A stretch of 64,000 nucleotides of DNA from Subtercola frigoramans (GTDB lineage Bacteria; Actinomycetota; Actinomycetes; Actinomycetales; Microbacteriaceae): the NCBI RefSeq assembly GCF_016907385.1, contig NZ_JAFBBU010000001.1, positions 3,100,001 to 3,164,000 of the forward strand, given 5' to 3'. Every line of letters begins with the position of its first letter. Positions within the stretch are counted from its first letter, which is position 1. The position numbers and the translations under genes were made by a program. Positions 12,578 to 31,374 of the stretch are shown here, piece after piece. Below the pieces are notes generated by a model. The model had not been told where the DNA came from, made no database searches, and saw only the letters and a list, made by a program, of their open reading frames with translations.

Positions 12578-13333
12578 TCAGTGTTCGAACGACTCTCTCA
12601 AGGCGAGGATGCCCTCGGCAGCCGCGCCGTCGAACACGACGTTGCCGTGCGAAAGTACGACGACGCGGTCGCAGAGGTCTTCGACCTGGGAGGCGGAGTG
12701 GCTGACCAGGATGATCGTTCGCCCCTCCTGCTGGAACTCCCGGATCTTGTTCATGCACTTCTCCTGGAAGGGCTCATCGCCCACGGCAAGTACCTCGTCG
12801 ACCAACAGGATGTCGGGGTCGACGTGCACGGCGATAGCGAAGGCAAGCCGAACGTACATTCCAGAAGAGTAGAACTTCACCTGTGTATCGATGAACGCTT
12901 CGATTTCAGAGAACGCCACGATCGAATCGAAGTACTCGTCGGTCTGGGCGCGGCTGAGCCCGAGGATGGAGCTGTTCAGGTAGACATTCTCTCGGCCCGT
13001 CAGGTCAGGGTGAAACCCTGCACCCAGTTCGAGCAGCGCGGCCAGGCGCCCACGGCGCTGCACCGAGCCCTCGTTGGGTTCGATGATGCCGCCGAGCACC
13101 TTGAGGAGCGTGCTCTTACCTGAACCGTTCGCACCGACCAGGCCGATGGTCGACCCGGCCGTGATATCGAACGACACATCTCGGAGCGCCCAGAAATCGT
13201 CTTTGTGCTTGTTCGAGCGACCGAAGTTGACGATTCGTTCTTTGAGGGACTTGTCCTTGCGAATGACGAAACGTTTCGAGACGTTGGAAGCCTTGACCAC
13301 GATCGGGGCGTTGGCGATGAGAGGGGAAGGCAT
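12578..13333 (-). CDS. ABC-2 polysaccharide exporter, ATP-binding subunit (Wzt/TagH type)
   Basis: A 251-residue ATPase. Walker A is GANGSGKST (Lys73), the signature is SSGMY (about 156-160) and Walker B is ILLVDE (about 175-180) followed by VLAVGDEPFQ, typical of the polysaccharide and teichoic acid exporter subgroup. The protein stops soon after the nucleotide-binding domain, so it lacks the C-terminal glycan-recognition domain of some Wzt proteins. The ATG at 13333 overlaps the permease stop by one base (TGATG); the frame is open further upstream but that part lies inside the permease gene. With the permease it would export a polyprenyl-diphosphate-linked glycan, probably the product of the neighbouring glycosyltransferases. 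Confidence 0.93.
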   Translation of the reverse strand: MPSPLIANAPIVVKASNVSKRFVIRKDKSLKERIVNFGRSNKHKDDFWALRDVSFDITAGSTIGLVGANGSGKSTLLKVLGGIIEPNEGSVQRRGRLAALLELGAGFHPDLTGRENVYLNSSILGLSRAQTDEYFDSIVAFSEIEAFIDTQVKFYSSGMYVRLAFAIAVHVDPDILLVDEVLAVGDEPFQEKCMNKIREFQQEGRTIILVSHSASQVEDLCDRVVVLSHGNVVFDGAAAEGILALRESFEH

Positions 13334-14357: not shown

Positions 14358-15836
14358 CTAGGCCGACGTCGATGAGGCAGGACGCGGAGCGAAATAGTCC
14401 CAGAGCTCGCGAGCATAGTCCGACCAGTCCCGCTGCGACAGATTCGCCGCCTCCGCTACCAGCCGCGCGTGGAGTTCGTCGTCGAGCAGCCCCTGTTTCA
14501 GGCCGCGATAGACATCATCATCGTCTCGAGGATCGACGAAGATGGCGCCCCCCGACACAGCGATCTCCTTCATACTGCCGAAGTTCGACGTGATGACTGG
14601 GGTGCCCGCAGAGAGAGACTCCCCCACAGGGAGCCCGAAACCCTCGTTGAGTGACGGGAAGATGCTCACCCTGGCCAGGCGATAGGCGCTCCAGAGCAGG
14701 GAGTCCGACACAGCAGAGATGGCCCGGACGGCCCTTCCTGCCTCCGCGAGGTGGTCCAGCTGCGCACGGAACTCCTCGCCGTGCCAGCCATTGCCGCCAA
14801 TGAAGACCAGCTGGAACTGCACGCCTTCACGCCAGAGCCGCTCGGCAGCATAGAGAACAGCAAGGTGGTTCTTGCGGGGTTCATGGCTGCCGACACAGAC
14901 GACAAGCGGGCTGTCTCCCCGAACCAGCTTCTCGCGAGCCGCAGCGAATTCGGCAGGAGCGACCTCTGCTGCCACGCTGGGCAACAGCAGTGGTTCGATC
15001 TCGGGGCCGGTGAGACCCGCGCCGCCGAGCATCCGCTTCCAGCCGCGGTATTCTGTCGCGGCCGCTGCCGAGATTGTCGAAACCCGGTCGAAGTGCGCGA
15101 GGGCAGCGAGATTCTTCGAGAACGCGGCCGACATGCCTTCGCCGACCGTTTCAGATGAGGTCAGTGGAACGCAGTCGAAGCCGATGACGCCTGTACGGTT
15201 GCCCGAGAATTCGGCAAAGCTCTTCAGTCTCGCTGTTCTGTCGCCCTCGATTGCCAGCTCCGGCAGAATGTAGGTACTTCGGTACGGAATGGTCAGTTGC
15301 CAGGTCCTGGGCCGCGGCACGTGCGGTACCGAGCCGTAGAGCGCGTTCTGGCGTTCAGGTTCCGAGAGGTGGCGAAGGCCGGAGAACCGCGGGTCCCACC
15401 CCACCAGTTCGACGCCGGCGCGATCCTTCCACTCGACGATCGTCTGGCGCACGACGCGCTGGATGCCCGTGGCCAGCCCGGTGCGCGAAGTGTGGTGTAC
15501 GTCGACAATGACGGCGTCTGTGACGATTCGCACCGCGACCAGGCGGTTCGGCGCCCGGAGTCGGCGGCTGCGCCGCACAACCTCGTCGAGTGCACTGCGC
15601 GTGCCAGTGAGTGTGGCGCCACGGCGGAAACGTTCGAAATCCAGAGCGAACGGGAATTGCGCGGAGATCGCCGCCAGCGCGAGCCAGAGCCGCGATGTGT
15701 CGGTGCCGATAGCCGGCGCGATCACGTCGAGGCGATCCGAGACGGAACGATCGCGGTCGGAGGGCCCGGAGGAGACATCGACGCCCAGGGCGCCCTCGAG
15801 GGCGGCGAGCCGTGAATCGAGTACGGAATCAGTCAT
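14358..15836 (-). CDS. Glycosyltransferase family 4-like, paralogue A1 of a local family
   Basis: A 492-residue protein. The last 240 residues are a GT-B family-4-type donor domain: VCVGSHEPRKNHLAVLYAAERLW, then SLNEGFGLPVGESLSAGTPVI with the E-x7-E motif. The N-terminal half is unlike ordinary GT4 proteins and carries IVDVHHTSRTGLATGIQRVVRQT near residue 120 and GNRTGVIGFDCVPL near 230, shared with four other proteins in this window. It is closest in type to the protein at 29914-31374. The start ATG at 15836 overlaps the upstream paralogue by 8 bases. The DXD motif is absent, as in GT-B enzymes. Donor and acceptor are unknown; a role in the exported polysaccharide is inferred from context. 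Confidence 0.88.
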   Translation of the reverse strand: MTDSVLDSRLAALEGALGVDVSSGPSDRDRSVSDRLDVIAPAIGTDTSRLWLALAAISAQFPFALDFERFRRGATLTGTRSALDEVVRRSRRLRAPNRLVAVRIVTDAVIVDVHHTSRTGLATGIQRVVRQTIVEWKDRAGVELVGWDPRFSGLRHLSEPERQNALYGSVPHVPRPRTWQLTIPYRSTYILPELAIEGDRTARLKSFAEFSGNRTGVIGFDCVPLTSSETVGEGMSAAFSKNLAALAHFDRVSTISAAAATEYRGWKRMLGGAGLTGPEIEPLLLPSVAAEVAPAEFAAAREKLVRGDSPLVVCVGSHEPRKNHLAVLYAAERLWREGVQFQLVFIGGNGWHGEEFRAQLDHLAEAGRAVRAISAVSDSLLWSAYRLARVSIFPSLNEGFGLPVGESLSAGTPVITSNFGSMKEIAVSGGAIFVDPRDDDDVYRGLKQGLLDDELHARLVAEAANLSQRDWSDYARELWDYFAPRPASSTSA

Positions 15837-17400
15837 GACTACCAGCCTCCAGCGGCTCCATCAGTTCGTGCCACAGTTCGTCCGCATAGTCGCTCCAGCG
15901 TCGGGGCTCACGGCCGCGGGCTTGATCGACGAGTCTGCGGTGTGCCTCGTCGTCGGTGAGCAGCAGACGCATCGCGTCTGCGATCTGCGAATCGTCGCGA
16001 GGGTCGACGACAAGGCAGCCGCCGCCCTGTGCGATCTCAGCGGTACTGCCGAAGTCGGACGTAATCGAAGGGATACCGAACGCCAGGGACTCGGCAACCG
16101 GCAAACCGTACCCTTCGTGAAGAGACGGGAAGATGGTGAACCACGCGGCCCGGTAAGAATCTGTGAGCACGTCGTCGCTCACCCCCCTCAAGAGTTCGAC
16201 GCTGTACCCCGCACGGTTGAGCCGGGCCACTTCTCGGTCGACGAGGCGCTTGTAGTCCGGGCGAGCCCCGCCGATCATCCGGAGCCTGAAGGAAAGCCCT
16301 TGCCGCCACAGCGTCTCCGCTGCGAAGAGCACGGCGAGCAGGTTCTTGCGGGGTTCCTGGTTGCCCACGATGAGCACCATTCTCTCGCCGGTATCGGACC
16401 GCTCGTCGCTGGGTCCCGCACTGGGCGTGCTGAGCGTCTGCGCCCCCGGCACCTGGGCTGGCAGGATCACTGCACTGACCGTCGGGCCGGTAACACCCTG
16501 GGCGTTCACTGCCTGAACGAATCCCCGGAACTCCTCTGCGGCGGACTCACTGATCGCGGCAACTCGTGTCGAGTTCTTGACCACGGTGGAGTACCGCGCG
16601 AACTTCTCGATCTCGACCTTCTGGATGAGGTCTGCCGTCACGAAAGGGATGGCGTCGTACCCGATCATCACGACACGGTTGCCCGAGAACTCGGCGAGCG
16701 CGGCGAGCCGGCCTGAAACGCCCTCCCGAGCCACCTCGGGGAGAATGACACTGGTTCGAAACGGAACGATGAGCCGGGTGGCCTCGTCGGTGGCCGCTCC
16801 GTGAATCGATCCTCGCTTCGGCACCACGCGATCCCGCCTGTTCCATTCAAGCACCCTCCGGCGTTCGACCTCATCGGTTGCGCAGAAGATCTCGTCGTTC
16901 TCGGTCCAGCGTGCGAGAACGATGTCGTGCGATGAGCTCCACAGGGAGACGGTTTCGCGCACGACGCGCTGGATGCCCGTGTTGTGGTCGTAGCGCGCGC
17001 AGAAGTCAACGTCGACAACCGCCTGCTGCTGAACGATGTCGAGTTGCTGTGTCAGGGCTCGCAGACGCCTGCCCGATCTCGAGATGCAGTCGAGCAGTGT
17101 GATCAGGGAAAGGGCAGGGTCGGCAAGTGACAGGTCCCGACGCGCACGGTTGACGAGTTCAGCATCGGGGAACGAGGCGGCGAGAGCGGTGAGCAGAAGC
17201 CACAGTTCGTCGACCTTCGCGCTTGCCCTGACCTGCCGGGCGAGGTGGTCGGCGAGCACCCCGGGACCACGGAGCGCCAGAGCGTCTTCGTCGTGCGATT
17301 GCGGGAGGATCACTGCGGCTGTCGCTCGCAGCCGCTGCAGAAGTGCTGTCTCTGCCTCCTCCACGAACGAGGAGGGATCCTGTTCGTAGAGGGGTTTCAC
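15829..17400 (-). CDS. Glycosyltransferase family 4-like, paralogue B1 of a local family
   Basis: A 523-residue protein when started at GTG 17400, whose GTGA overlaps the stop of the 86-residue gene. The frame is open upstream to 17535 but that stretch lies inside the small gene and is unlike its paralogues. An N-terminal helical region (EEAETALLQRLRATAAVIL) precedes DVDFCARYDHNTGIQRVVRET, then FSGNRVVMIGYDAIPF, and a C-terminal donor domain with LIVGNQEPRKNLLAVLFAAE and SLHEGYGLPVAESLAFG. It is closest to the paralogues at 20355-22292 and 28184-29917. In the latter, the sequence matching the small upstream gene is fused to the N terminus. Sugar specificity is unknown. Confidence 0.86.
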   Translation of the reverse strand: MKPLYEQDPSSFVEEAETALLQRLRATAAVILPQSHDEDALALRGPGVLADHLARQVRASAKVDELWLLLTALAASFPDAELVNRARRDLSLADPALSLITLLDCISRSGRRLRALTQQLDIVQQQAVVDVDFCARYDHNTGIQRVVRETVSLWSSSHDIVLARWTENDEIFCATDEVERRRVLEWNRRDRVVPKRGSIHGAATDEATRLIVPFRTSVILPEVAREGVSGRLAALAEFSGNRVVMIGYDAIPFVTADLIQKVEIEKFARYSTVVKNSTRVAAISESAAEEFRGFVQAVNAQGVTGPTVSAVILPAQVPGAQTLSTPSAGPSDERSDTGERMVLIVGNQEPRKNLLAVLFAAETLWRQGLSFRLRMIGGARPDYKRLVDREVARLNRAGYSVELLRGVSDDVLTDSYRAAWFTIFPSLHEGYGLPVAESLAFGIPSITSDFGSTAEIAQGGGCLVVDPRDDSQIADAMRLLLTDDEAHRRLVDQARGREPRRWSDYADELWHELMEPLEAGSHD

Positions 17401-17657
17401 GAAGTGGGCTTCTGCGAGTTGCCGCGACGCAGCTGCGCCGAACGCACCGTGCGAAGTGGTTTGGTGACCTTCCAGGAGAGCGTCTGCTCCATCGCCGACA
17501 CCGCCAGGGACCCGAAATGTTCGGCGGTCAGCCATTGGCCGACGGCCCGGTTCGCGATGGCGTCGAGCTCGGCCTGGAGCGCATCGCGCTCGTTCTCGAG
17601 CTCGACCACACGTTCGCTGAGCGGGTCAGGAGTGGGTTCGACACGGTGTTCTGGCAC
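17397..17657 (-). CDS. 86-residue coiled-coil protein with SWK-T-PLR motif
   Basis: A small protein starting at GTG 17657, with no Shine-Dalgarno sequence but a perfect TATAAT 6 bases upstream. Residues about 15-40 (ERVVELENERDALQAELDAI) are a strong coiled coil; the end carries LSWKVTKPLRTVRSAQLRR. Its stop overlaps the GTG of glycosyltransferase B1 (GTGA). The same LSW-(R/K)-x-T-x-PLR segment is fused directly to the N terminus of paralogue B3 (28184-29917) and ends the FkbM methyltransferase. It may therefore be a detachable module that docks enzymes to the membrane, the exporter or each other. No catalytic residues are visible. A frameshift splitting one larger gene is possible but not needed, because the overlap is a normal coupled one. 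Confidence 0.7.
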   Translation of the reverse strand: MPEHRVEPTPDPLSERVVELENERDALQAELDAIANRAVGQWLTAEHFGSLAVSAMEQTLSWKVTKPLRTVRSAQLRRGNSQKPTS

Positions 17658-17663
17658 TGGCCA

Positions 17664-17669
17664 ATTATA
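17664..17669 (-). promoter_or_regulatory. Consensus -10 box (TATAAT) before the 86-residue gene
   Basis: TATAAT on the minus strand, overlapping the GtrA stop codon, is separated from the GTG start by only TGGCCA. This is the arrangement of a leaderless promoter internal to the operon. No good -35 is visible at 17 bases. Confidence 0.45.
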
Positions 17670-18258
17670 GATGGCGCCTCTTGCGCGCGGCCTCTGCCTG
17701 TGCGGCCGCGTCGTCTTCGAAGAGCGCCGCTGCGCCGACCTCGGCCTTCTGCTCGGCATCGAGGTGATCGCTGTCACGTTCAGCGTCGGAATCGGCGGGT
17801 GCCGTGCGGTGGTGAGCAAAGACCCAGTAGCGGTAGAGGGCGAAGCGGAAGATCGTTGCGAGGACCGTTCCAATGAGCTGCGACGAAATGTTGTCGGCCA
17901 GAAGGGACTGAAAGCCGAGCACATAATGGCTGACCCACAGGCACAACAGGTTGATCAGCAGGCCGGAGACAGCGACGACGGAGAACTCGAGCAGCTCACG
18001 GAGGTAGTTCGCTCGGCGATGTTCGCGAAAAGTCCAGTACCTGTTGCCGAACCAGGTGACGACCGTGGCCACAGCGACGGCGACGACCTTGGCCCAGAGC
18101 GGGCCCGACAGAAAGTGATCGTTGCCGATGCCGTTTATCAGGAGCCAGTTGAAGACGGCGAAATCGACAACGAACCCGATTGCACCGACCACCCCGAACT
18201 TGAAGAGATAGCGCAGGAGTTGGTCATAGACCCTCGAGACGAACGCGATCACTTGCAC
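17665..18258 (-). CDS. GtrA family membrane protein
   Basis: A 197-residue protein with four membrane spans in the GtrA pattern: LRYLFKFGVVGAIGFVVDFA, a second span with WAKVVAVAVATVVTWFGNRYWTF, then two more ending in IFRFALYRYWVF. The Asn-Arg-Tyr-Trp-Thr-Phe-Arg motif is the family hallmark. A hydrophilic acidic tail of about 45 residues follows. GtrA proteins are thought to help translocate polyprenyl-phosphate sugars, supplying GT-C enzymes outside the membrane. The start may be GTG 18258 or GTG 18252; the latter would overlap the DUF4012 stop as GTGA. A second GtrA gene is at 45245-45766. Confidence 0.9.
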   Translation of the reverse strand: MQVIAFVSRVYDQLLRYLFKFGVVGAIGFVVDFAVFNWLLINGIGNDHFLSGPLWAKVVAVAVATVVTWFGNRYWTFREHRRANYLRELLEFSVVAVSGLLINLLCLWVSHYVLGFQSLLADNISSQLIGTVLATIFRFALYRYWVFAHHRTAPADSDAERDSDHLDAEQKAEVGAAALFEDDAAAQAEAARKRRHL

Positions 18259-20144
18259 CCCGCTGCGGTGGCCGTCGCGACCGTCGGGTTCATCATCGGC
18301 GTGGACTGCAGGATGGGTGGGCCGTAGGTGCCAGCTGCACCCTGGAATGTCGCCGTCACGGTGTTGGTCTCGCCAGGGGCGAGGTCGACTTGGAATCGTG
18401 CGACAGGCCGACCCAGATCGCTCGCACTACTCAGAACGGTTGCCGACACGCTGGTGTCACCCGCCGAGGTGGCTGTGACTGCGGCCCCGACCGGCCCGTA
18501 GACGAAAACCTGGGTGCTGAACTTGGCTCCCTTGAATTTCGCCCCCGTGACGAACGGGGCGAGTGTCGCCGCTTCCTCCGGCGTGATGGTGGAGTGCAGG
18601 GTCGCCGTCATGGTGAACGTGGGATTCTGGGGGTTCTGGCACACGTCGGTCGTGAAATCAGTCGCCGTCGCCAGCCAATAATCGGTCTTCGACACGCTTA
18701 CGTCGCGAAAGTACGTGCCGACCACCGTCGATTTCGAGTTGTCGGTCGGGAGCACCCCCTGGAGCTTCGACCCGTCCATCAGTTTCTGCTCCTCGGCCAC
18801 GGGGCTCCACGCCATGATGTTGCCCGTGTCGATGGCTTTGTTCACAGCCGTGAGCAGGGTCTGCGGGTCGGCCGATGTCGACGTGAGTCCCGAGAAGATG
18901 GACTTCGCCGCGTCAGCGAAGAAGATGTCGGTCTGCGCCTGGATTTCGCTCTCGGGGTATCTCAGGTAGATGTCGTGCAACAGCAGCGGCACGGCATTCT
19001 GCCCGGTGATCTGCTCCCCCGAAGCGAGGGTGACCGGGCCGGTCGCGTCGAGGATGTACCCCAGGGCGATCGGGTCGATCGAGATGACCCCGTCGACCTT
19101 CTCGCTCTTGTACTTCTCCCACCACGCCTTGATGCTCTCTCCTGCCGTGGGGAAGTCCGGCCGCGCTGTGGACCAGTTCAGCGTGGAGTTGATACCGGTG
19201 CTGAAGATGTTGATCAGGTTCTGGTCCATCTCCCTGACCGGCCCGTCGTTGGTCGGGAAGTTCTGGCTCGACCCCTGGTCGGTGATGCCGAACGCTCCGT
19301 TGTCGACGGTCAGCAAGGAGAGCGAGGCAGGGCCACCGCCCAGGGCTGTCGTTTCGGCGTTGTTGAGGAAGGCGAGCACGTAGTGCCGCGTACCGTTCAT
19401 GCCGAGCACGTTCTCAGCGGTGGCGAGCGTGGTGCGAACCTTGCCGATCTGGTCGTGCGCCTTCGTCAGAGCGCTCGTCATCAGCTTCTGGGCCGAACCG
19501 ATCTGCCCGACCGTGTTCGCGGTGTCGATGGATGCCACGGCAGCCTGTTGGGCGACGATCGCCGCGTCGGCACTCGCCAGCGTCGCGTCTCCCGTTGTCA
19601 GCAACGCCGTGTTGAACTTTCCGTTCGACGGTCTGATTGAATCAGGCGTGAGCCCAGCCGAGAAGTCAACCACGGGCATCAGCGCCTGGCTGCCCAAGTT
19701 GTCGAGAGCCGTCGAGAGTTCCCGCACGGCCGTCAGGTTGGGCCCGACAATGGGCACCCCCTCGGCGAAGCCGTACAGGGGATCATCCGTGTGCACTCGC
19801 GCATCGTGCGCGGCGTCGGCAAACTCTTTCGCCGATGCCGCGAGCCCGGTTGTGTCAAGTGACGCGAGCTGGGTCTGGATCTTCGACACGGAACCCTGCG
19901 CGGACTCCAATGCGGACTTCGCCTGCAACGCCTGGAACGCGACCCAGCCGATGGCACACCCCAAGCCGATGACGACGACAGCGATCGACGACCAGACGAT
20001 CACTCGACGGCGGCGTTTCGTGTGGCGGCGTTCCGGGTGGCCAGCCGGATCACTCGCCGCGCGCCGCTGCTCCCGTCGGCTCAACTCGGGTTGTGTCGGT
20101 TCGGGAGCAACAGAGTCGGTGTCTGCAGATTCGATGCTCGGCAC
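18249..20144 (-). CDS. DUF4012 domain-containing membrane-anchored protein
   Basis: A 631-residue protein with a basic cytoplasmic N terminus (RREQRRAASDPAGHPERR), one membrane span near residues 48-70, a coiled-coil segment, and a long extracytoplasmic part matching DUF4012: VLGMNGTRHYVLAFLNNAETTALGGGPAS, DGVISIDPIALGYILDATGPV, and a C-terminal beta domain. DUF4012 proteins are common in actinobacterial polysaccharide loci; their function is unknown. It heads a probable operon with GtrA, the 86-residue gene and two glycosyltransferases. Start is uncertain: GTG 20144 overlaps the only AAGGAG, which sits 8 bases before an in-frame ATC. An AUC start is possible but rare. Confidence 0.87.
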   Translation of the reverse strand: MPSIESADTDSVAPEPTQPELSRREQRRAASDPAGHPERRHTKRRRRVIVWSSIAVVVIGLGCAIGWVAFQALQAKSALESAQGSVSKIQTQLASLDTTGLAASAKEFADAAHDARVHTDDPLYGFAEGVPIVGPNLTAVRELSTALDNLGSQALMPVVDFSAGLTPDSIRPSNGKFNTALLTTGDATLASADAAIVAQQAAVASIDTANTVGQIGSAQKLMTSALTKAHDQIGKVRTTLATAENVLGMNGTRHYVLAFLNNAETTALGGGPASLSLLTVDNGAFGITDQGSSQNFPTNDGPVREMDQNLINIFSTGINSTLNWSTARPDFPTAGESIKAWWEKYKSEKVDGVISIDPIALGYILDATGPVTLASGEQITGQNAVPLLLHDIYLRYPESEIQAQTDIFFADAAKSIFSGLTSTSADPQTLLTAVNKAIDTGNIMAWSPVAEEQKLMDGSKLQGVLPTDNSKSTVVGTYFRDVSVSKTDYWLATATDFTTDVCQNPQNPTFTMTATLHSTITPEEAATLAPFVTGAKFKGAKFSTQVFVYGPVGAAVTATSAGDTSVSATVLSSASDLGRPVARFQVDLAPGETNTVTATFQGAAGTYGPPILQSTPMMNPTVATATAAGCK

Positions 20145-20354
20145 TCCTTGGGAAGCGAATTACGGGAATGTCGGGGCCCGCGCTCTGCCTGGCTCGCCCA
20201 GCACTCTCCCCCACGGGTGACACCACTTTAGCAAGCGCCGCCATTCTGACCCTGAGATTCAGCAGAGCGGAAGCGCAATCCGCACCCGACGACCGCAGCG
20301 CTCCTTCACCTTCTGCCCGTCGCCGAACACGGTCAGCGTCCCTGAGTAGTACGT

Positions 20355-22292
20355 CTAGACCCGGCCGACCCGCTTCCGCACGATGCGCAGCGCCGCCTTC
20401 GACGCCGGCACTACGCCCATTTCGCGCGAGCGGGCGACGAAGAACACCGCCAACGGCCCGAGCTTGGACACCTTGTTGACCAGGGAATTGCGTCGGGCCT
20501 CCTGCACGCGATGCGTTTCGGTGACCCCCGTGAACCATGATTCGAGCTGGTGCACGGTCGAGCCCGCCACCAGTGCGGAGTTCGAGATGGATGCACGGCC
20601 AGAGTGGGCAAGGCTGGCCACAGAGCCGACGGCAGAACGGGCATCCGGCAGGCCACCGTGACTTCGCCGATCGTGATCGTCGGCCAGCTCTCGGAGCGAC
20701 GGCTCAACCAGCGTCGACCACAGCTCGGCTGCATACTCGTCCCAGGTGCGGAACGATCTCTCCGCGGCTTCCTTGCGCAACCGTGCGTAGAGCGTGTCAT
20801 CGAGCAGCAACGACTTCATCGCAACCCGGAGCGCTTCGTCATCCCGTGCGTCGACGGCCACGCATCCACCGCCCGCCGCAGCCTCGCGGAGGCTGCCATG
20901 GTCGGCCGTGATGACCGGCGTGCCAAGCGCAAGAGACTCAGCGACGGGAAGGCCGAAACCCTCGTGAAGCGAAGGGAAGACGCAGAATCGGGCCTCACGG
21001 TATGAGTCGAGGAGAACTGCATCACTAGCTCCCCGGAGCACCTCGACCTCGCGACCGCCCGCCCGCAGCCGACGGAGCTCGGCGTCGAAGCGGTGCACGC
21101 TGGCGGAACTCCCCCCACCGATGAACCGGAGACGGAAGCGCACGCCCTCTGCCCAGAGCTGCTGGGCGGCGAACAGAATCGCAGCATGGTTCTTGCGTGG
21201 CTCCTGGCTGCCGACCACGAGGACGAGTGGGCTCTGGTCAGCCGAGGGGGCCGGCGTCACTGACGCGGGCGACGGGGATGTCTGAGTCGGGGCGTTCATG
21301 GCCAGCGGAACCGGGGTCACCTGGGGCCCCGCCATCCCCTGGGCGCTCAACGCCGAGGCGAAGCCGGAGAACTCGTCAGCGGCAGAGATACTCACGCCGG
21401 CAAGTCGACGGGAGTGCTTCACGACGGTCAGATAGCGGGCGAAGCGTTCGATCTCGGCCGTCTCCTGGCTGTCAGAACTCACGATCGGAATCATGTCGTG
21501 ACCCACCATCACGACCAGATTGCCCGACACCGCGGCCACCGCAGACAGAGGTTCGGCAACAGCGTGCTGGGCCACCTCGATCTCGACCACGACGCTGTCC
21601 ACAGGCACGATCGTGACGCGTGACGCTGCGCCGCCCCCACCTGTTGCAGCGGTGGCTCCCTCGCTCTTCGGCCGCGCGGAGTGACGCGCCCAATCCGTGG
21701 TGCGGGTGACCTCCGTCGCGACGAGTCGGCGCAGCCCGGAGTTGTCGTCGTTCCAGCACACCAGCGTGATGTCGCGCGCGACGTGCCATCTCGAAGCCGT
21801 CTCGCGGAGCACCCGCTGCACACCGGTGTTGTGGTCGAACCGGGCACTGAAGTCGGCATCGAGAATCACCGCACCCGGGACCACTTCTATACGGTCATCC
21901 AGATGATAGGAGCGCAGGATGATCGGCTCGAGCGCCGCGAGAACGTCGCCGAGCTCCTCGCCAGGTGCTGCGAGGCGCAGCGCACGCCGCACCGATCGGT
22001 GTTCATCGAGGGTGGGGTAGACCGCCGTGAACCCGACAATGAGCAACCACACATCACGATCCAGCGAAGATCCGGGGGCCGAACCTGAGACAACGCGCAG
22101 AATCTCCATAGCCTGGATGCCTGGATCCAGGTCGTTGCTCTGCGCGATGTTCGGGTCCACGGAGCCGGTCACGTGAGGTGCGATGGCCCGCAGGCGACTC
22201 GCGAGCGAGCCGACGTGCGGAGACCCCGCAGTCCGGGATGCTGCACTGACCAGCGGGCCTGTGGCGTCGGCTGATCCTGAGCTGTCGGACAC
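20355..22292 (-). CDS. Glycosyltransferase family 4-like, paralogue B2 with C-terminal extension
   Basis: A 645-residue protein, the longest of the local family. The N-terminal half has LASRLRAIAPHV, then AVILDADFSARFDHNTGVQRVLRET and GNLVVMVGHDMIPI. The donor domain carries LVVGSQEPRKNHAAILFAA and SLHEGFGLPVAESLALGTPVI. About 110 extra residues follow the GT domain, ending in a basic helix (ALRIVRKRVGRV), which resembles the tail of the FkbM protein. I chose GTG 22292 because GGAAGGGG is just upstream; ATG 22319 and 22316 have no ribosome site. It is transcribed away from gmd across a short divergent region. Specificity is unknown. Confidence 0.86.
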   Translation of the reverse strand: MSDSSGSADATGPLVSAASRTAGSPHVGSLASRLRAIAPHVTGSVDPNIAQSNDLDPGIQAMEILRVVSGSAPGSSLDRDVWLLIVGFTAVYPTLDEHRSVRRALRLAAPGEELGDVLAALEPIILRSYHLDDRIEVVPGAVILDADFSARFDHNTGVQRVLRETASRWHVARDITLVCWNDDNSGLRRLVATEVTRTTDWARHSARPKSEGATAATGGGGAASRVTIVPVDSVVVEIEVAQHAVAEPLSAVAAVSGNLVVMVGHDMIPIVSSDSQETAEIERFARYLTVVKHSRRLAGVSISAADEFSGFASALSAQGMAGPQVTPVPLAMNAPTQTSPSPASVTPAPSADQSPLVLVVGSQEPRKNHAAILFAAQQLWAEGVRFRLRFIGGGSSASVHRFDAELRRLRAGGREVEVLRGASDAVLLDSYREARFCVFPSLHEGFGLPVAESLALGTPVITADHGSLREAAAGGGCVAVDARDDEALRVAMKSLLLDDTLYARLRKEAAERSFRTWDEYAAELWSTLVEPSLRELADDHDRRSHGGLPDARSAVGSVASLAHSGRASISNSALVAGSTVHQLESWFTGVTETHRVQEARRNSLVNKVSKLGPLAVFFVARSREMGVVPASKAALRIVRKRVGRV

Positions 22293-22419
22293 GGCACCCC
22301 TTCCCGGATCACGCATCATGGAATACTAGTTGATCGACTGGCCCCAGTAACATGGGCTGTCGCACACGACACGTCGCAGATTCACCTCCGCGCTCAGATT
22401 CACAGATAAACGAGGAATT

Positions 22420-23406
<987 letters not shown>

Positions 23407-23482
23407 ACTAATCTCAGGAGGCCTGCTGGCGCAGGCTCCCTCCCGTTCTGAACCACCGACAACGAAGGATGATCGACACCCC

Positions 23483-24445
23483 GTGCCAGTCGCTCTGATC
23501 ACCGGAATCTCGGGCCAGGACGGCTCGTACCTCGCCCAGTCGCTGCTCGCCGACGGCTACGAGGTGCACGGCATCGTTCGGAAGCCCGCAGAGGAGAACC
23601 TCGCCGCGATCGGCGAGAGCTCCAGGCTCACTCTGCATCGAACGGACCTACTGGCTCCCGGTGCACTGGAAGACCTCGTCGCTGATGTGAAGCCGAACGA
23701 GCTCTACAGCCTCGCCGCGGTGAGCAGTGTCTTCGAGTCGTGGCGGAGCCCCGTGCAGACCGGCGAGATCAACGGGCAGGTGGTCGTGCGGTTGCTCGAC
23801 AGCGCGTTCCGCCTGCACGAGACCGGGCACGACGTGCGGGTGCTGCACGCCTCGAGCGCGGAGGTCTTCGGCCAGACCGAGGTGTCACCGCAGACCGAGA
23901 ACACCCCCATCAGGCCGTCTTCGCCCTACGGCGCATCGAAGGCCTACGCCCATCTCTCCGTCGGGGTGTTCCGCGGGCGGGGTGTGCACGCCTCGAACTG
24001 CATTCTCTACAACCACGAATCACCGCGAAGGCCAGAGAACTTCGTCACCCGCAAGATCACGGCGAGTGTCGCCCGCATCAGCAGGGGCCTGCAGGACGGT
24101 ATCGAACTCGGCAACCTCGACGCCCGCCGCGACTGGGGCTGGGCCCCGGACTATGTCGACGCGATGCGCCGTGCCGTCACCGCGCCCCGCGGCGGCGACT
24201 ACATCGTCGCGACCGGCGTCTCGCACACCATCCACGACTTCCTCGACGCAGCCTTCGCTCGCGTGGGCATCACCGACTGGTCGGGCCTCGTCACCCAGAA
24301 CCCCGAATTCGTGCGCCCTGTCGACCCCGCCGAGCAGCGCGGCGACGCCACGAAAGCCCGCGACGAGCTCGGCTGGACCCCCACCACCGGCTTCACCACC
24401 ATCGTCGAACGCATGGTCGACAATGACCTCGAACTCCTTGCGTGA
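23483..24445 (+). CDS. GMD-type SDR, second copy; possible dehydratase or 4-reductase
   Basis: A 320-residue paralogue of the preceding gene. It keeps TGISGQDGSYL, the residues Ser125 and Glu127 (ASSAEVFG), Tyr149 and Lys153 (SPYGASK), NHESPRRPENFVTRKI and LGNLDARRDWGWAPDYV, so it is GMD-like rather than a typical GDP-6-deoxymannose reductase (RMD). Either the cell has two dehydratases or this copy has taken over the 4-keto reduction needed to finish a GDP-6-deoxyhexose; no clear RMD gene is otherwise present. Its GTG start at 23483 lacks a strong ribosome site. The 3' end overlaps the next gene by 23 bases, implying coupling. Confidence 0.85.
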   Translation: MPVALITGISGQDGSYLAQSLLADGYEVHGIVRKPAEENLAAIGESSRLTLHRTDLLAPGALEDLVADVKPNELYSLAAVSSVFESWRSPVQTGEINGQVVVRLLDSAFRLHETGHDVRVLHASSAEVFGQTEVSPQTENTPIRPSSPYGASKAYAHLSVGVFRGRGVHASNCILYNHESPRRPENFVTRKITASVARISRGLQDGIELGNLDARRDWGWAPDYVDAMRRAVTAPRGGDYIVATGVSHTIHDFLDAAFARVGITDWSGLVTQNPEFVRPVDPAEQRGDATKARDELGWTPTTGFTTIVERMVDNDLELLA

Positions 24446-25670
24446 CACCCGTAGCCCGAAAGGCTTCAGCCGGCCGCTGACCGTGCTTCTCGATGCCACA
24501 TCGATCCCTGCCAACCGCGGCGGCGTCGGCCGCTACGTCGAGAACCTGGTCCCTGAGCTGGTGAAGCTCGGCGTCGCCCTTGTCGTCGTGTGCCAACCCC
24601 GAGACCGCGAGACCTTCGAGTCAGCGGGCGTGCAGCAGGTCGTTGTGATGCCAACCTGGGGTTCCCGCGCCCCCGGCAGGTTCGTCTGGGAACAGCTGAG
24701 ACTGCCCTCTCTTGCCCGCGCAGTCGGGGCCACGGTCATCCACTCACCGCACTACACCTTCCCGCTCTTCACGCGGCGGGCACGCGTGGTGACCATCCAC
24801 GACCTCACGTTCTTCAGCGACCCCGAGCTGCACTCGCGACTCAAGGGCGTGTTCTTCCGCAGCTGGATCCGGCTCGCGAAAGCCCTGCGCGTGACGGTGG
24901 TGACCCCGAGCGGGGCGACCGCCGACGAGTTCCGCCGCGTCACCGGGGCGCGTGACTCGCGCGTCTTCGCCGCGCAACTGGGCTACGACACTGCGGTCTT
25001 CCATCAGCCGAGTACCGATGAACTGGCGGAGTTCCGCGCGTCACTCGACCCCTCGCCGCGCGAGTGGGTCGCGTTCCTCGGCACCCTCGAGCCCCGCAAG
25101 AACGTGCCGGCACTCGTGCGCGCCTTCGTCTCGGCAACAGCATCCGTTGGCCTTGATCGACCGGCGCTGCTGCTCGCCGGCGGCGCCGGCTGGGACACCT
25201 CGGTCGCCGACGCGGTCGCAGAGGCACACGCCGCCGGCCGCGACGTGCGCACCCTCGGCTACCTGCCGATCGGGCACCTCCGGTCGCTTCTCGGCGGCGC
25301 GGTCGTGACCGCCTACCCGAGTCTCGGCGAAGGCTTCGGCCTGCCGGTGCTCGAAGCCATGGCCAGCGGCTCAGCCGTGCTCACCACGCGCCGGCTCTCC
25401 CTTCCCGAAGTGGGCGGCGACGCTGTGGCGTACTGCGATGTGGATGAGGCCAGTATCGCCGAAGCACTCGCTGGGCTGCTGACGAATCCGGTGGAACGGC
25501 GTCAACTGGCCGAAGCAGGCCTGAAGCGTGCGACACAGTTCTCGTGGCACGCCTGTGCGGTGGAGCACCGGCGTGCGTATTCAGCAGCGCTCACCGGCCT
25601 GGCGCCCCGCGGTGTTGCATCCAGCAGTGCCGCACCCGACAGCGCAGCACCTCGAGCGGAGGCGACATGA
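24423..25670 (+). CDS. Glycosyltransferase family 4 (mannosyl/rhamnosyltransferase-like)
   Basis: A 415-residue GT-B enzyme. The N domain opens TVLLDATSIPANRGGVGRYV, the glycine-rich acceptor loop of GT4 enzymes, and has VTIHDLTFF near residue 122. The donor domain has FLGTLEPRKNVPALVRAF and SLGEGFGLPVLEAMASG with the E-x7-E motif. I chose ATG 24423, inside the end of the upstream gene; the frame is open much further upstream but that is the shadow of the SDR gene. The last 25 residues are Ala/Ser/Pro-rich. Its stop overlaps the next start (ATGA). The likely donor is the GDP-6-deoxyhexose or GDP-mannose made upstream, by context only. Confidence 0.9.
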   Translation: MTSNSLRDTRSPKGFSRPLTVLLDATSIPANRGGVGRYVENLVPELVKLGVALVVVCQPRDRETFESAGVQQVVVMPTWGSRAPGRFVWEQLRLPSLARAVGATVIHSPHYTFPLFTRRARVVTIHDLTFFSDPELHSRLKGVFFRSWIRLAKALRVTVVTPSGATADEFRRVTGARDSRVFAAQLGYDTAVFHQPSTDELAEFRASLDPSPREWVAFLGTLEPRKNVPALVRAFVSATASVGLDRPALLLAGGAGWDTSVADAVAEAHAAGRDVRTLGYLPIGHLRSLLGGAVVTAYPSLGEGFGLPVLEAMASGSAVLTTRRLSLPEVGGDAVAYCDVDEASIAEALAGLLTNPVERRQLAEAGLKRATQFSWHACAVEHRRAYSAALTGLAPRGVASSSAAPDSAAPRAEAT

Positions 25671-26551
25671 GCAGCACCATCTCCCTCGTGACCGTGAGTT
25701 ACTTCTCGGGAGACGACGTCGTCACCTGCCTGAACTCGGTGCCGGAGGCCAGCATCCGGCACCTGGACATCATTGTCGTGAACAATGCCGCGGCGGATGA
25801 CCTGCGGCCCACTCTCGAGCAATTCGAAGGGCCCGACTCTCGCACTGGCGACCTCACGCTGCTCGAACCGAAAGCCAACCTCGGCTACGGCGGCGCAGTC
25901 AACTTCGCGGCGGCGCGGCTGGCACCCGAGATCGAGTGGATCCTCGTCACCAACCCCGACGTCACGTTCACTCCCGGTAGCATCGACGCTCTACTCGCGG
26001 TTGCCGAAGCCGACGACCGAATCGGGATGGTCGGCCCCCGCATCACGAACGACGACGGGTCGATCTACCCCTCGGCCCGCGACCTGCCCTCGCTCACCGT
26101 CGGTGCCGGGCACGCCGTGCTGCACCGTATCTGGCCGGGAAACCCCTGGTCGAAGAGGTACCTCCGGGCAGACAAATCCCACTCGGCACAGACCGAGCCG
26201 GTGCAGTCGGGATGGCTCTCCGGCGCCTGCATGCTCGTGCGCCGGGCCGCCTTCGAGCAGGTTGGCGGGTTCGACGACCGCTTCTTCATGTACTTCGAAG
26301 ACGTCGACCTCGGCGAACGGATCGGCAACGCCGGCTGGAAGGTGCTCTACGTGCCCACCGCCACAGTCGGTCACGCAGGTGGTACCTCCACCGCAGCCCA
26401 CTCGGCCGCGATGACCAGAGCGCACCACCGGAGCGCCTACCGGTACCTCGCGAAGCGCTACCACCAGTGGTACCTGCTGCCGGTTCGCCTAGCGCTTCGT
26501 CTGGGGCTGTTTCTCAGGGCACTCGTGGGTACAGTGAGAAATCATGGCTGA
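25667..26551 (+). CDS. Family 2 glycosyltransferase (rhamnosyltransferase-like)
   Basis: A 294-residue GT-A enzyme. It begins ISLVTVSYFSGDDVVTCLNS, has KANLGYGGAVNFAA (about 67-80), VTNPDVTF, where the Asp-containing motif binds metal and nucleotide sugar, and GACMLVRRAAFEQVGGFDDRFFMYFEDVDLGERI, typical of WbbL-like rhamnosyltransferases. A short amphipathic or membrane-proximal C terminus follows. The ATG at 25667 overlaps the upstream stop (ATGA) and its own end overlaps the next gene by 8 bases. It probably adds a deoxyhexose to the lipid-linked glycan at the inner face of the membrane. Confidence 0.9.
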   Translation: MSSTISLVTVSYFSGDDVVTCLNSVPEASIRHLDIIVVNNAAADDLRPTLEQFEGPDSRTGDLTLLEPKANLGYGGAVNFAAARLAPEIEWILVTNPDVTFTPGSIDALLAVAEADDRIGMVGPRITNDDGSIYPSARDLPSLTVGAGHAVLHRIWPGNPWSKRYLRADKSHSAQTEPVQSGWLSGACMLVRRAAFEQVGGFDDRFFMYFEDVDLGERIGNAGWKVLYVPTATVGHAGGTSTAAHSAAMTRAHHRSAYRYLAKRYHQWYLLPVRLALRLGLFLRALVGTVRNHG

Positions 26552-28088
26552 GACGGCACCCCGCGAAGCAGAATCCGACGAGCGCACGGCAGGGGGCGCC
26601 ACGCCGGGTGGTCTGCAGCCCGCGACTGCCCCGCGTAGCCGCCTGTACCGGCTGGATGCCCGGCTGACCACGATCGTCTTCTACGTGCTGCTCGCCGCCG
26701 GCCTGGCCTTTCGCATCTACCTGTTCTACACACCGGCCTTCATCGTCGACTCCGACAATGCGGTCGTCTACCTGCAGGCCAAACACATCTCCGAAGGCGA
26801 ATTCAGCTGGTTCTTCTGGGGGCAGAGTTACGGCGGCACCCTCCTCCAGTTCGTCGCCGGGGCAGCAATACTCGTCTTCGGGGCGCACATCCAGGTGCTC
26901 TCCATCGTCAGCACCCTCTTCTTCGTCGTCGCCGTCTTCCTGGTGCGATACATCGGCACCCGCGCGTTCGACCGCCTCACCGGTACCGTCGCCGCCATCC
27001 TCTTCTGGTTCTCGGGCTACTACACCCTCAAGATCTCGATCAGCGAGTCGGGTTTCTATGGGCCGAGCCTCGTGCTGGGGCTCGCGACCGTTGCGGTCGC
27101 GCTGCGAACCGGCGTACGGCGCACGTATCTCCAGTGGGCGGTCGTGGGCCTGCTCGCGGGGCTGGCATTCTGGCAGTCGCCAATGGGTGCGATGCTCGCC
27201 GCACCCGCACTCGTGATCCTGATCATCCGGCAGCGTTCATGGCGCCACCTGCTGGTCGGTGGCGCAGCTGTGGTCATCGGCGCACTGCCGTGGATCATCC
27301 AGTTCGCCACGACCTTGTCTGCGGTGAAGCCCAAGGGCCGCCCCAACCCCCGCAGCCTCGTCACCTTCTTCACCGAACTCATGCCCACCATCGTCAGTGC
27401 GGACCGCGGTCTCACGAAGCTCATGGTCGCCGCCACCTGCCTCGGTCTCCTCGCCCTAGTGACCTATCTCGCCATCCGGCGCAGGAACGCCTGGCTGGCC
27501 TGCCTGGTCGCCGGTTCGGTGTTGGTCGTGGTTGTTGTCACTGTCGGGGCGGGGGTTGTGCTCTCGAGGGACGACGTACGGTACGCGGTCTTCGTGCTCC
27601 CGACGCTGACGATCGCACTGGCCTGGATCGTCACACGGGTGCGCTTTCTGGGGATCGCGGCCATGATCCTGGCCGCCCTGCTGACATTCGGCCAGGTGAG
27701 ACAGCTCTTCGGAGACCTCGGCGTCAACACCAGTTCGCAGTACATCGTCGGCGACATCCGCGGCCTCGGCGACTACCTCGAGCAAGAGAACATCACCCAT
27801 GCCTTCGGCGACTACTGGGTCTCGTATTCCGTCTCTGCCGAGACAGATGAGCGAGCCCAGGTCGCCGCCCTCTCCGGCGAACTCCGGTATGAGCCCTATG
27901 CCGACGCCGCTGCTGCGCAGGACCCGGTCGTGGTGATCGTGCTGCAGGGGAACGACAACGACAGGATGCTGCAGGCCGACCCGATCGCAACGGCTCCCGG
28001 CACCACACGCACCGAGGTCGCGGGCTACGCAATCTATCGGTTCGCGCAGCCTGTCAACGTCTTCGACTTCTCGTGGGCACTCTTCTGA
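26544..28088 (+). CDS. GT-C-like multi-span membrane glycosyltransferase
   Basis: A 514-residue protein with a 35-residue hydrophilic N terminus and about ten membrane spans. The first outer loop contains FIVDSDNAVVYLQAKHISEG; acidic residues here match the catalytic loop position of GT-C enzymes (PMT/ArnT-like). A second feature is GQSYGGTLLQFV near residue 93. A C-terminal extracytoplasmic part of about 140 residues follows the last spans. GT-C enzymes use polyprenyl-phosphate sugars outside the cell, which would fit the GtrA and family-2 glycosyltransferase genes of this locus. The specific family is not clear by eye. It overlaps the upstream gene by 8 bases. Confidence 0.75.
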   Translation: MAETAPREAESDERTAGGATPGGLQPATAPRSRLYRLDARLTTIVFYVLLAAGLAFRIYLFYTPAFIVDSDNAVVYLQAKHISEGEFSWFFWGQSYGGTLLQFVAGAAILVFGAHIQVLSIVSTLFFVVAVFLVRYIGTRAFDRLTGTVAAILFWFSGYYTLKISISESGFYGPSLVLGLATVAVALRTGVRRTYLQWAVVGLLAGLAFWQSPMGAMLAAPALVILIIRQRSWRHLLVGGAAVVIGALPWIIQFATTLSAVKPKGRPNPRSLVTFFTELMPTIVSADRGLTKLMVAATCLGLLALVTYLAIRRRNAWLACLVAGSVLVVVVVTVGAGVVLSRDDVRYAVFVLPTLTIALAWIVTRVRFLGIAAMILAALLTFGQVRQLFGDLGVNTSSQYIVGDIRGLGDYLEQENITHAFGDYWVSYSVSAETDERAQVAALSGELRYEPYADAAAAQDPVVVIVLQGNDNDRMLQADPIATAPGTTRTEVAGYAIYRFAQPVNVFDFSWALF

Positions 28089-28168
28089 TCCTGAGCGGCC
28101 GAGCCTGCTGTCTGCGCGGGTGAATCTCCAGGCGCGCGCACTCACGGTTTTGTAGCGCAGGCGTGTAT

Positions 28169-28174
28169 TAGGAT
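28169..28174 (+). promoter_or_regulatory. Candidate leaderless -10 box for glycosyltransferase B3
   Basis: TAGGAT is 9 bases upstream of ATG 28184, in the 95-base gap after the membrane glycosyltransferase. The GGATGG could alternatively act as a weak ribosome site. Confidence 0.35.
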
Positions 28175-28183
28175 GGTCTGCCG

Positions 28184-29917
28184 ATGGCCACTCTACAATT
28201 GCACTCGAATCCCGCCGTTCTCAAATCAAGCCAGATCGACTCGTGGTTCGGTGCCTTCGGCCTGGGAATCGGGGGCGACAGCCCCAGCGCAGAAGAGATG
28301 CGCCTCAGTATGAGTTGGCGCGTGACGGAACCACTCCGGTCCCTGCGGGCGCGTGAACGACTCCGCGCTCTTCGATCGGGCACACTCAGGCTGCCACAGA
28401 CGCAGAACAACACGAATGCCCTCGCTCTGGCCAGACAGGCGCTGCTGCAGCGGCTGAAGGCGGTCGCACCTCATCTTCTCACCGCTCAGAACAGCCGGCA
28501 GATCGACGAGCTCTCTCTCGAGCACCTTCTTGGCGCTCTCATCGAGACTGTACACACCACTGATGACCACGCCCGACTCTGGCTGCTCACGATTGCCATC
28601 AGTGGGTGCTTTCCCGACCAGGCCCAGATCCTGGGCATGGCACGTGACATCCACGGAGTCGATGGGCCATCTGCGGTTGCCCGCATCCTTCATCACTGCG
28701 GTGTGTGGACGAGTCGCTACCAGTCACACCTGCGAACGATTGAGATGGTCACCGACGTTCCGCTGGCATTCTGCGACTTCACCGCCCGCTTCGGCTTCAA
28801 CTCCGGTATTCAGCGGGTGACACGACAGACCCTCTCGTTCTGGCGAACACTGGGCGACTTCCGTCTCGCCGCGGTCACTTCAGACGGCACGTCGCTACGC
28901 ACACTCGACGAGGAAGAAACCACCCGCGTACTGGATTGGTCGGGAGACGACGACGCGAACCGCGACGACATCGACGACACCATCGATCACTCGACGAGTG
29001 TGCTCGTTGTGCCCTGGAACACCACCGTCTTCGTGCCTGAGGCACCTCTGGGCCATGGCACGAACGCGTTGATCGCGATGGCCCGGTTCTCCCCGAACCG
29101 CACGGTGGCAATCGGGTACGACACGATTCCCGTTTCGGGTGGCCACTTCGTGCACCGCGGCCTGACGCTGATCTTCGTGTCGTACCTGTCGATGATCAAG
29201 TACTTCGACGAAGTCGTCTGTATCTCCCAGGCGACTGCAGACGAGTTCATCGGCTTCAACGAGGCCCTCGTCGCGCAAGGTCTGACGGGGCCCCGGGTGA
29301 GTACTGTCGTACTCCCGCTCGAACCGATCCCTTCAGACCGTTCGATCGACGAACCCGCGGAGAGCAGTCTCCCCACGGTTCTCTCGGTCAGCAGCAACGA
29401 ACCGAGAAAGAACCAGCTCAGTGTGGTCTACGCCAGCGAACTGCTCTGGCGCGAAGGGCTGAAGTTCAACCTGGTGCTTCTCGGTGGCAGGGGTGACCGG
29501 CTCTTCACCGACGTTCCCGATGCCGTCGCCGCGCTTCGAGCCAAGGGAAGAACCGTCGAATTGCGACGAGACGTCGACGAAGCGGGCCTTGCCGAGGCGT
29601 ATCGCCGGGCGAGGTTCAGCATCTTCGTCTCCCTCCAGGAGGGATACGGGCTTCCGATTGCCGAGTCACTCGCCGTCGGCACCCCTGCCATCACGACCGA
29701 CTACGGGAGCACCGCGGAGATCGCCGCAGGAGGCGGGTGCGTGACCGTCGACCCGCGCGACGACCTGGCGATCGCCGCGGCGATGCGTGAGCTCCTGACC
29801 AGCGATGAGACGATCAGCAGGCTGAAGACAGAGATCAGCACCCGCGTGGATTCGACTTGGGGAGACTATGCAACCGTCTTGTGGGACACGATGACGGCTT
29901 CGAAAGGCAGCAAATGA
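28184..29917 (+). CDS. Glycosyltransferase family 4-like, paralogue B3 with fused SWR-T-PLR segment
   Basis: A 577-residue protein. Residues about 40-65 (RLSMSWRVTEPLRSLRARER) match the end of the separate 86-residue protein at 17397-17657. They are followed by ALLQRLKAVAPHLL, matching the start of B1. Then come FCDFTARFGFNSGIQRVTRQT, FSPNRTVAIGYDTIPV, and the donor domain with VLSVSSNEPRKNQLSVVYASE and SLQEGYGLPIAESLAVGTPAI. So this single protein equals the 86-residue gene plus B1 in the left half of the locus. It overlaps the next gene by four bases (ATGA). Role as for the other family members: glycan assembly, sugar unknown. Confidence 0.87.
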   Translation: MATLQLHSNPAVLKSSQIDSWFGAFGLGIGGDSPSAEEMRLSMSWRVTEPLRSLRARERLRALRSGTLRLPQTQNNTNALALARQALLQRLKAVAPHLLTAQNSRQIDELSLEHLLGALIETVHTTDDHARLWLLTIAISGCFPDQAQILGMARDIHGVDGPSAVARILHHCGVWTSRYQSHLRTIEMVTDVPLAFCDFTARFGFNSGIQRVTRQTLSFWRTLGDFRLAAVTSDGTSLRTLDEEETTRVLDWSGDDDANRDDIDDTIDHSTSVLVVPWNTTVFVPEAPLGHGTNALIAMARFSPNRTVAIGYDTIPVSGGHFVHRGLTLIFVSYLSMIKYFDEVVCISQATADEFIGFNEALVAQGLTGPRVSTVVLPLEPIPSDRSIDEPAESSLPTVLSVSSNEPRKNQLSVVYASELLWREGLKFNLVLLGGRGDRLFTDVPDAVAALRAKGRTVELRRDVDEAGLAEAYRRARFSIFVSLQEGYGLPIAESLAVGTPAITTDYGSTAEIAAGGGCVTVDPRDDLAIAAAMRELLTSDETISRLKTEISTRVDSTWGDYATVLWDTMTASKGSK

Positions 29918-31374
29918 CTGACGTTCTGGGGTGGGCCGGCGGGCTCCGTACTCTGATCGGCCATCTGGGAGCAGAGCCTGAAGCCACGGACAACCCCGAC
30001 CTGCTGCTCGCCCAGCTCGCGACGGTCTGCGACGCCGGCCTCACCGACAGCCAACTCTGGGCCACCTGGTCGATTCTGAAGGGCGAGCTTCCCACCGAGA
30101 GCGAACTGATCAGGTTCCGCCGGAACGCAGGCCTCAACGGCGCGGCTCGGGCAATCTCCGATCTGGGCGGACGCGCAGGCGCAAGCATGTTCGGTCTCTC
30201 GACGGAGGTCGAGATTGCCAGCAACGTGGTCCTGGTCGACGTCCACCACACCAGCAGCACGATCATGCGGTCTGGTGTGCAGAGAGTCGTCAGGGAAGCC
30301 GCCCTTCGGTGGGGTCACGCCCACGACGTCGTCTTCGTCTCCTGGACAGATGATGAGAAGGCTCTTCGCCGCCTGACCGTTCGAGAAGAAGCCCGCATGC
30401 GCGGCGGGGACCCCGACGCCAGCGTCACAATCGCTCCGGCAACCGCGAAGATCGTGATACCTCTGACGGGCCTCATGATCGTGCCCGAGCTCGCCACCGA
30501 CGCCGGCGTCGCCGAACGACTGCTGGCCATGGGACGATTCTCGGCGATGCGCGTCGTCTACATCGGCTACGACTGTGTGCCTCTCACCTCGGGTGAGACA
30601 ACGGACGCTCCGATCGCCGCCAACTTTCCCCTCTATCTGGATGCCGTGTCGTACGGCACGAGAGTCGCGACCATTTCCGAGTCGACGGCGCTCGAGTTCC
30701 GCAGCTGGAAGAAGATGCTCCCTTCGTCGGGACGGGTCGGGCCCGACGTGCGCACGGTGTTCCTCGGTGGCGACACCAGTGAGCCGACCGCGAAGGAGCT
30801 CGCCGAAACGAAGGCTCTCCTGAAGGTCAGCGACCATGAACCTATGATCTTGGCCGTGGGCAGTCACGAACCGCGTAAGAACCACCTGGCACTTCTACAG
30901 GCCGCGCGCATCCTCTGGGAGCGGGGCGAGAAGTTCCGCCTGGTGCTCATCGGGAGCTCCTCATGGGGGTCTGGAGCGTTCGACGCGCTCGCCACCGTAT
31001 TGAAGGAGAACGGACGCCCGCTGGTCGTGTTGTCGAATGCCTCCGATGCCGTTCTGGCCTCGAGCTACCGCTTGGCGAGAGTGTCGGTGTTCACCTCATT
31101 CCACGAGGGCTTCGGACTTCCGATCGTCGAGTCGTTGAGGGCAGGTACTCCGGTCATCGCCTCGAACGTGGGCAGCATGCTCGAGATCTCCCACCACTAC
31201 GGCGGGGTGATCAGCGTCGACCCCCACTCCGACAACGAGCTGGAGGGGGCTCTTCTGGCAGCACTGCACGATCCGGCTGTCCTCGACAAGAAGCGACGCG
31301 ACCTGGCCGCCAACAGCTATGTTTCGTGGGACGACTACGCCGACGAACTGTGGGCGTACTTCACAGAGGCGTAA
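29914..31374 (+). CDS. Glycosyltransferase family 4-like, paralogue A2 of a local family
   Basis: A 486-residue protein, the counterpart of A1 (14358-15836). Shared features are an N terminus beginning MTD, VVLVDVHHTSSTIMRSGVQRV near residue 110, RVVYIGYDCVPLTSGET near 213, RVATISESTALEFRSWKKML, LAVGSHEPRKNHLALLQAARI and SFHEGFGLPIVESLRAGTPVI. I chose ATG 29914, coupled by ATGA to B3; the frame is open upstream but there it lies inside B3. As in the left half of the locus, the A gene follows a B gene. It ends 88 bases from the convergent gene for the repeat protein. Specificity is unknown. Confidence 0.88.
   Translation: MTDVLGWAGGLRTLIGHLGAEPEATDNPDLLLAQLATVCDAGLTDSQLWATWSILKGELPTESELIRFRRNAGLNGAARAISDLGGRAGASMFGLSTEVEIASNVVLVDVHHTSSTIMRSGVQRVVREAALRWGHAHDVVFVSWTDDEKALRRLTVREEARMRGGDPDASVTIAPATAKIVIPLTGLMIVPELATDAGVAERLLAMGRFSAMRVVYIGYDCVPLTSGETTDAPIAANFPLYLDAVSYGTRVATISESTALEFRSWKKMLPSSGRVGPDVRTVFLGGDTSEPTAKELAETKALLKVSDHEPMILAVGSHEPRKNHLALLQAARILWERGEKFRLVLIGSSSWGSGAFDALATVLKENGRPLVVLSNASDAVLASSYRLARVSVFTSFHEGFGLPIVESLRAGTPVIASNVGSMLEISHHYGGVISVDPHSDNELEGALLAALHDPAVLDKKRRDLAANSYVSWDDYADELWAYFTEA

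Follow-up and report, generated by a model that had tools for sequence, protein, structure and literature searches.

Five glycosyltransferase genes of CAZy family GT4 in a 64,000-nucleotide stretch of the Subtercola frigoramans chromosome (NZ_JAFBBU010000001.1, positions 3,100,001 to 3,164,000; hereafter the window) are built around a recurring unit, X-B-A, in which a small coiled-coil component (X) precedes or is fused to a type B enzyme that is followed by a type A enzyme. This is a known enzyme class in an unusual, conserved architecture. We propose, with a probability of roughly 0.55, that X-B-A is a module of two chain-extending enzymes assembled on a coiled-coil scaffold, which would work much as WbdA and WbdD do but is built differently. 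The five enzymes would extend a lipid-linked surface polysaccharide, X would tether them at the membrane, and the polymer would be exported by the neighboring Wzm/Wzt system. B and A would make one kind of linkage apiece and, as the two sit together, the chain may grow by their alternating action, with a helical prefix of about 105 residues that is common to both serving as a docking surface.

GT4 enzymes with a helical prefix

All five open reading frames (ORFs) that the original prediction had grouped as one family are present without internal stops (Table 1), and their homology extends over the full length of the alignment, at 35-39% identity to A1. The C-terminal GT4 donor domain is the sole Pfam match above cut-offs, with Glycos_transf_1 scoring 55-92 bits in five of five proteins against a cut-off of 26.4; every match in an NCBIfam scan fell below cut-off. 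When their own genome (3.68 Mb, single contig) was searched, the five members scored 705-810 bits and the next match 87 bits, and, among named sequences, those nearest to A1 and B1 belong to Subtercola. Members were found at E 1e-60 in 24 of 149 genomes of the Microbacteriaceae, and at E 1e-50, with scoring confined to the top 3 or 5 candidates in each genome, in 2 of 398 genomes of a phylum sample and 4 of 248 of an order sample, each count including the S. frigoramans genome itself. For further comparison we assembled 24 stretches from 23 other genomes which, with the window, gave 25 loci and 67 members.

Across these 67 members the shared signature reported at the outset is invariant, with G124, Q126, R127, R130 and D221 (A1 numbering) identical in every one. 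Equally constant are E398 and E406 of an E-x7-E motif and R321 and K322 of an R-K pair, which we take to be the donor-binding and catalytic mark of GT4. By fold, by these residues and by the Glycos_transf_1 match, A and B are retaining GT-B enzymes of family GT4. The VDVHHTS string put forward as the mark of type A did not survive wider sampling, since VDVHDTS, VDVSDTS, VDVRHTA and others occur across the A clade.

Table 1. Positions in the window of the GT4 genes, X elements and neighboring genes (aa, amino acids; pLDDT, predicted local distance difference test)
Feature	Position	Strand	Remarks
FkbM methyltransferase with X-like coiled-coil tail (LSWRITTPLR)	11546..12493	+	tail 12281-12487
Wzt-type ATPase	12578..13330	-	start codon not fixed
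Wzm-type ATP-binding cassette (ABC) exporter permease	13333..14277	-	right after A1
A1, GT4 type A, module I	14358..15836	-	492 aa; predicted structure, mean pLDDT 94.3
Complete GT-B fold of GT4 in A1, residues 106-487	14376..15521	-
Helical prefix of A1, residues 1-105	15522..15836	-	helices 3-17, 32-43, 47-58, 64-77, 79-90; without Pfam family
B1, GT4 type B, module I	15829..17400	-
X, small coiled-coil ORF, TLSWKVTKPLR	17397..17657	-	86 aa; proposed GTG start; end overlaps B1 start by 4 bases
B2, GT4 type B without A partner	20355..22292	-	prefix ~21876-22205
Possible degenerate X at B2 C terminus	20361..20552	-	weak, E 0.12
gmd, GDP-mannose 4,6-dehydratase homologue	22420..23406	+	TIGR01472 398 bits, just under 415 cut-off
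gmd paralogue directly after gmd	23483..24445	+	possible GDP-6-deoxyhexose reductase
B3, GT4 type B, module II, N-terminal X fusion	28184..29917	+	model mean pLDDT 90.2
X module fused in B3, residues 15-68, MSWRVTEPLR	28226..28387	+	helices 15-23, 36-41, 43-64
A2, GT4 type A, module II	29914..31374	+

The N-terminal half of these proteins, for which the original prediction knew no named family, is two units: a five-helix prefix (residues 1-105 of A1) and, from about residue 106, an ordinary GT4 acceptor domain with the signature that is also found in WbdA. This rules out the entire half as a new domain and leaves only the prefix without a name. A Pfam scan of ten prefixes (HMMER with its filters) found no family, and DUF4214, considered as its identity, was dropped when no such match appeared in that filtered scan. 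A search with the whole-protein model gave no solved-structure match over residues 1-105, a result that does not by itself show a new fold.

X and the history of the module

The unit had been described as a two-gene B-A module, but X also belongs to it. A motif scan revealed small (L/F)SWRxTxPLR reading frames directly upstream of B, in which the motif mostly follows a coiled-coil-like stretch. A profile built from 17 such motif-picked ORFs, and therefore circular for those 17, assigned an X to 33 of the 37 B-type genes, located upstream in 24, fused to the N terminus in six and at the C terminus in three; among these, one upstream match (E 0.29) and the three C-terminal ones (E 0.005, 0.12 and 0.43) are weak. 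Counting X beside or fused to B at E < 1e-3 gives 29, and a whole-genome search added one at the end of a locus, for a total of 30 of 37. That search, with a 15-row X alignment, yielded 39 matches in 24 of the 26 genomes that carry the GT4 family: 29 are next to or within a B gene, one is the second of a tandem pair, and nine are elsewhere, the FkbM tail in the window included. Three genomes (G046, G111 and G576) have an X match only away from B, and two (G037 and G100) gave no X match in this search; among 26 genomes in which the family searches had shown no A or B, two matched, both weakly (E 1.9e-4 and 2.6e-4).

Separate X ORFs measure about 85-130 residues in most of the frames read, and nothing reached the cut-off when the X ORF of module I was scanned against Pfam. 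In module II, X is fused to B in six of six members. Residues 11-70 of the B3 model are mostly helical (block pLDDT 65-92), although the model is silent on contacts in a complex. Two of three B2 orthologues have a match at the position of the possible degenerate X of B2 (E 0.005 and 0.43, both weak). At one locus (L041, 2957-3693, minus strand) two copies of X stand in tandem ahead of a single B gene.

In a tree of all 67 members, one branch with support of 100/100 divides the 30 A rows from the 37 rows of B and single genes, placing B1, B2 and B3 on one side and A1 and A2 on the other, as expected if B1 belongs with B3 and A1 with A2. Wherever A and B are adjacent in the loci of 24 genomes, B comes first (29 of 29 pairs, always as separate ORFs), as it does in three of three cases outside the Microbacteriaceae (G390, G654 and G576). 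Counted as adjacent same-strand neighbors, 29 of 30 are B then A, and the remaining one is where two modules meet in locus L048. In the window the stop and start overlap by eight bases in B1/A1 (15829-15836) and by four in B3/A2 (29914-29917), and the pairs are oppositely oriented about gmd, with pair I on the minus and pair II on the plus strand, all as first described. One genome, G134, has an A without its B; this A1 orthologue (L039, 873-2624, minus strand), from the same genus, is a natural case in which to ask whether A depends on B. A partial A on a short contig of G048, detected solely by the prefix profile, reads VDVHHTARTGLATGIQRV.

The suggested duplication of the module is likewise supported. 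Module II (B3-A2) is supported in both halves of the tree (99/94 for A, 100/97 for B), and its clade takes in pairs from G052 and G131, which represent two other genera, so the duplication is older than the genus Subtercola. The gmd-centered layout is complete in two other genomes of the genus, and a third lacks only B1. The histories of B and A seem from the trees to be congruent only in part. In G034, both B genes fall beside the module II B and the A genes with module I, and a nearest-module test agreed in just six of 15 genome comparisons; both results speak against simple co-inheritance of B and A. Eight of the nine failures involve G034 or G052, and one is G007 with G131. Pairing and module duplication, as originally interpreted, thus stand, whereas the unnamed N-terminal half and the two-part unit do not.

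In three genomes (G020, G042 and G080) an apparently single B is followed by an ORF that has the prefix but not the catalytic residues: positions E319, R321, K322, E398 and E406 are lost in all three, and prefix residues W51, P62 and R72 are kept in all three. In G042 this ORF is shorter, with most of the donor domain missing. A tree from which two near-duplicate rows were dropped places these dead relatives, on long branches, with the A clade (92/97). A search of 299 Microbacteriaceae genomes with these three as queries added a fourth (G898, E 1.4e-76), again located after X and B and, on visual inspection, lacking the EGFGLP stretch; the other matches were mostly ordinary A or B genes, with alignments that stopped before the donor domain. 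The presence of a catalytically dead A behind B in four genomes is a hint of an A-B complex, and its retention might be explained by an A-B heteromer, or these copies may be in the course of decay.

Genomic context and related systems

In the fetched DNA (stretches mostly of about 20 kb, one of 4 kb; blastp, E 1e-8, 40% coverage), 21 of 24 genomes have gmd and 19 have Wzm or Wzt, so that genes for ABC export are a recurring part of the context. The second short-chain dehydrogenase/reductase (SDR) of the window has its best matches among GMD structures (E 5e-77) and matches the reductase 2pk3 at E 2e-27; the name Rmd was not adopted for it, as it is closer to GMD than to this solved reductase. 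Because of this, the donor may be guanosine diphosphate (GDP)-mannose, a GDP-6-deoxyhexose made by gmd and its paralogue, or both. Cell-wall polymers containing D-rhamnose occur in Rathayibacter, and the D-rhamnan system of Pseudomonas (WbpX, WbpY and WbpZ) resembles the present locus in having several glycosyltransferases, gmd/rmd and Wzm/Wzt in one cluster. No Pfam domain, a carbohydrate-binding module included, was detected in the roughly 70 residues that follow the ABC_tran match of Wzt. Other neighbors are a DUF4012 protein between X and B2 (18249-20144), kept in three other loci of the genus at 61-64% identity, and, at 31463-34152, a CBM_4_9 protein of 715 residues beside a 181-residue protein without Pfam family, which have relatives in 10 and five other fetched loci, respectively. 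In excerpts of two Subtercola papers, rhamnose figures solely among the carbon sources tested (PMC5945732, PMC9287328).

The best annotated plasmid match is WbdA (NZ_CP022158.1, locus L061), a polymannosyl 2,3-alpha-mannosylpolymerase of an Escherichia coli O9-type cluster. In E. coli O9, WbdA comprises two glycosyltransferase modules, and its recruitment is through a membrane-proximal region at the C terminus of WbdD (PMC3482155, PMC11231755). Like the enzymes studied here, WbdA has two GT4 domains and belongs to an ABC-exporter cluster, and its C-terminal domain starts with VDI...TGIQRV.R and carries VHDILPL where our family has IGFDCVPL. In contrast, WbdA is one polypeptide with no helical prefix detected, whereas here there are two genes with a prefix on each. 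Descent of B and A from split WbdA halves was rejected, since they show no one-to-one match to the WbdA domains. By analogy, X may recruit B and A as the WbdD coiled coil recruits the two-module WbdA, with the modules here on separate polypeptides. In WbdD, a methyltransferase-kinase, the C-terminal coiled coil leads into a short W-R-T motif (SRSWRMTKGYR), and the X match of G390 and G654 likewise forms the tail of an FkbM-like methyltransferase frame, with which 97-99% of the window FkbM aligns, just upstream of B. X differs in being mostly a separate ORF or a fusion to B, and its sequence similarity to WbdD is marginal; no kinase turned up in the X-B-A loci, although no search was aimed at kinases.

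Among six distant glycosyltransferases compared, the best scores to the B profile (154-174 bits) came from multi-domain GT4 proteins of Alphaproteobacteria, in Rhodovastum (1310 residues) and Azospirillum thermophilum (888 residues). These differ in being single chains with two GT4 domains or one and, judged by eye, a GT2-like domain, and neither a prefix nor X was found in them. The Rhodovastum protein (L073, 1300-5232) has two GT4 domains of A/B type and a C-terminal GT2-like domain, and on the A. thermophilum plasmid (L070, 826-2861) a similar pair of gmd and gmd paralogue precedes the GT4-containing gene. Neither such a system nor its polymer appears among the matches listed for open-licence PMC literature.

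Alternative explanations and significance

More tentatively, X-B-A may be a previously undescribed actinobacterial heteromeric polymerase, in which the prefixes would dock B to A, X would either tether the enzymes or measure the chain, and the X-B-pseudoA arrangement of four genomes would keep a non-catalytic A as the partner of B. A simpler view is that these are ordinary neighboring GT4 enzymes, each adding one residue independently, that B-A adjacency reflects operon inheritance and that X is an unrelated operon protein. Polysaccharide loci often contain glycosyltransferase genes in tandem, which favors this view, and several observations weigh against a dedicated two-enzyme module: B2 has no A partner, the correlation of A and B distances includes shared species history, and the nearest-module test failed in nine of 15 comparisons. 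We nonetheless regard independent enzymes as rather unlikely, given the constancy of B-A order within and outside the Microbacteriaceae, the placement of a dead A relative behind B, and the same helical prefix on A, B and the dead partner; an unrelated X is hard to reconcile with its position beside or within B in 30 of 37 cases.

It is also conceivable, but distinctly improbable, that the enzymes make side chains or the short repeats used by a Wzx/Wzy route, and that Wzm/Wzt serves another polymer of the same cluster. A membrane protein with a Wzy_C domain at 10108-11499 has relatives in other loci, and the window, with two complete modules and B2, could supply two polymers. Against this stand the frequency of Wzm or Wzt in the fetched loci, their position right after A1 in the window, and the fact that WbdA, the best annotated relative, is a polymerase of the ABC route.

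For the chain-extending module that we favor, the analysis marks out a domain of 105 residues without Pfam family where the whole half had been read as unknown. Actinobacteria also supply natural variants of its parts, with the coiled-coil portion free, fused to B or forming the tail of a methyltransferase, and with one enzyme replaced by a dead relative. The proposed roles of X as scaffold and of A as second subunit are therefore directly testable.
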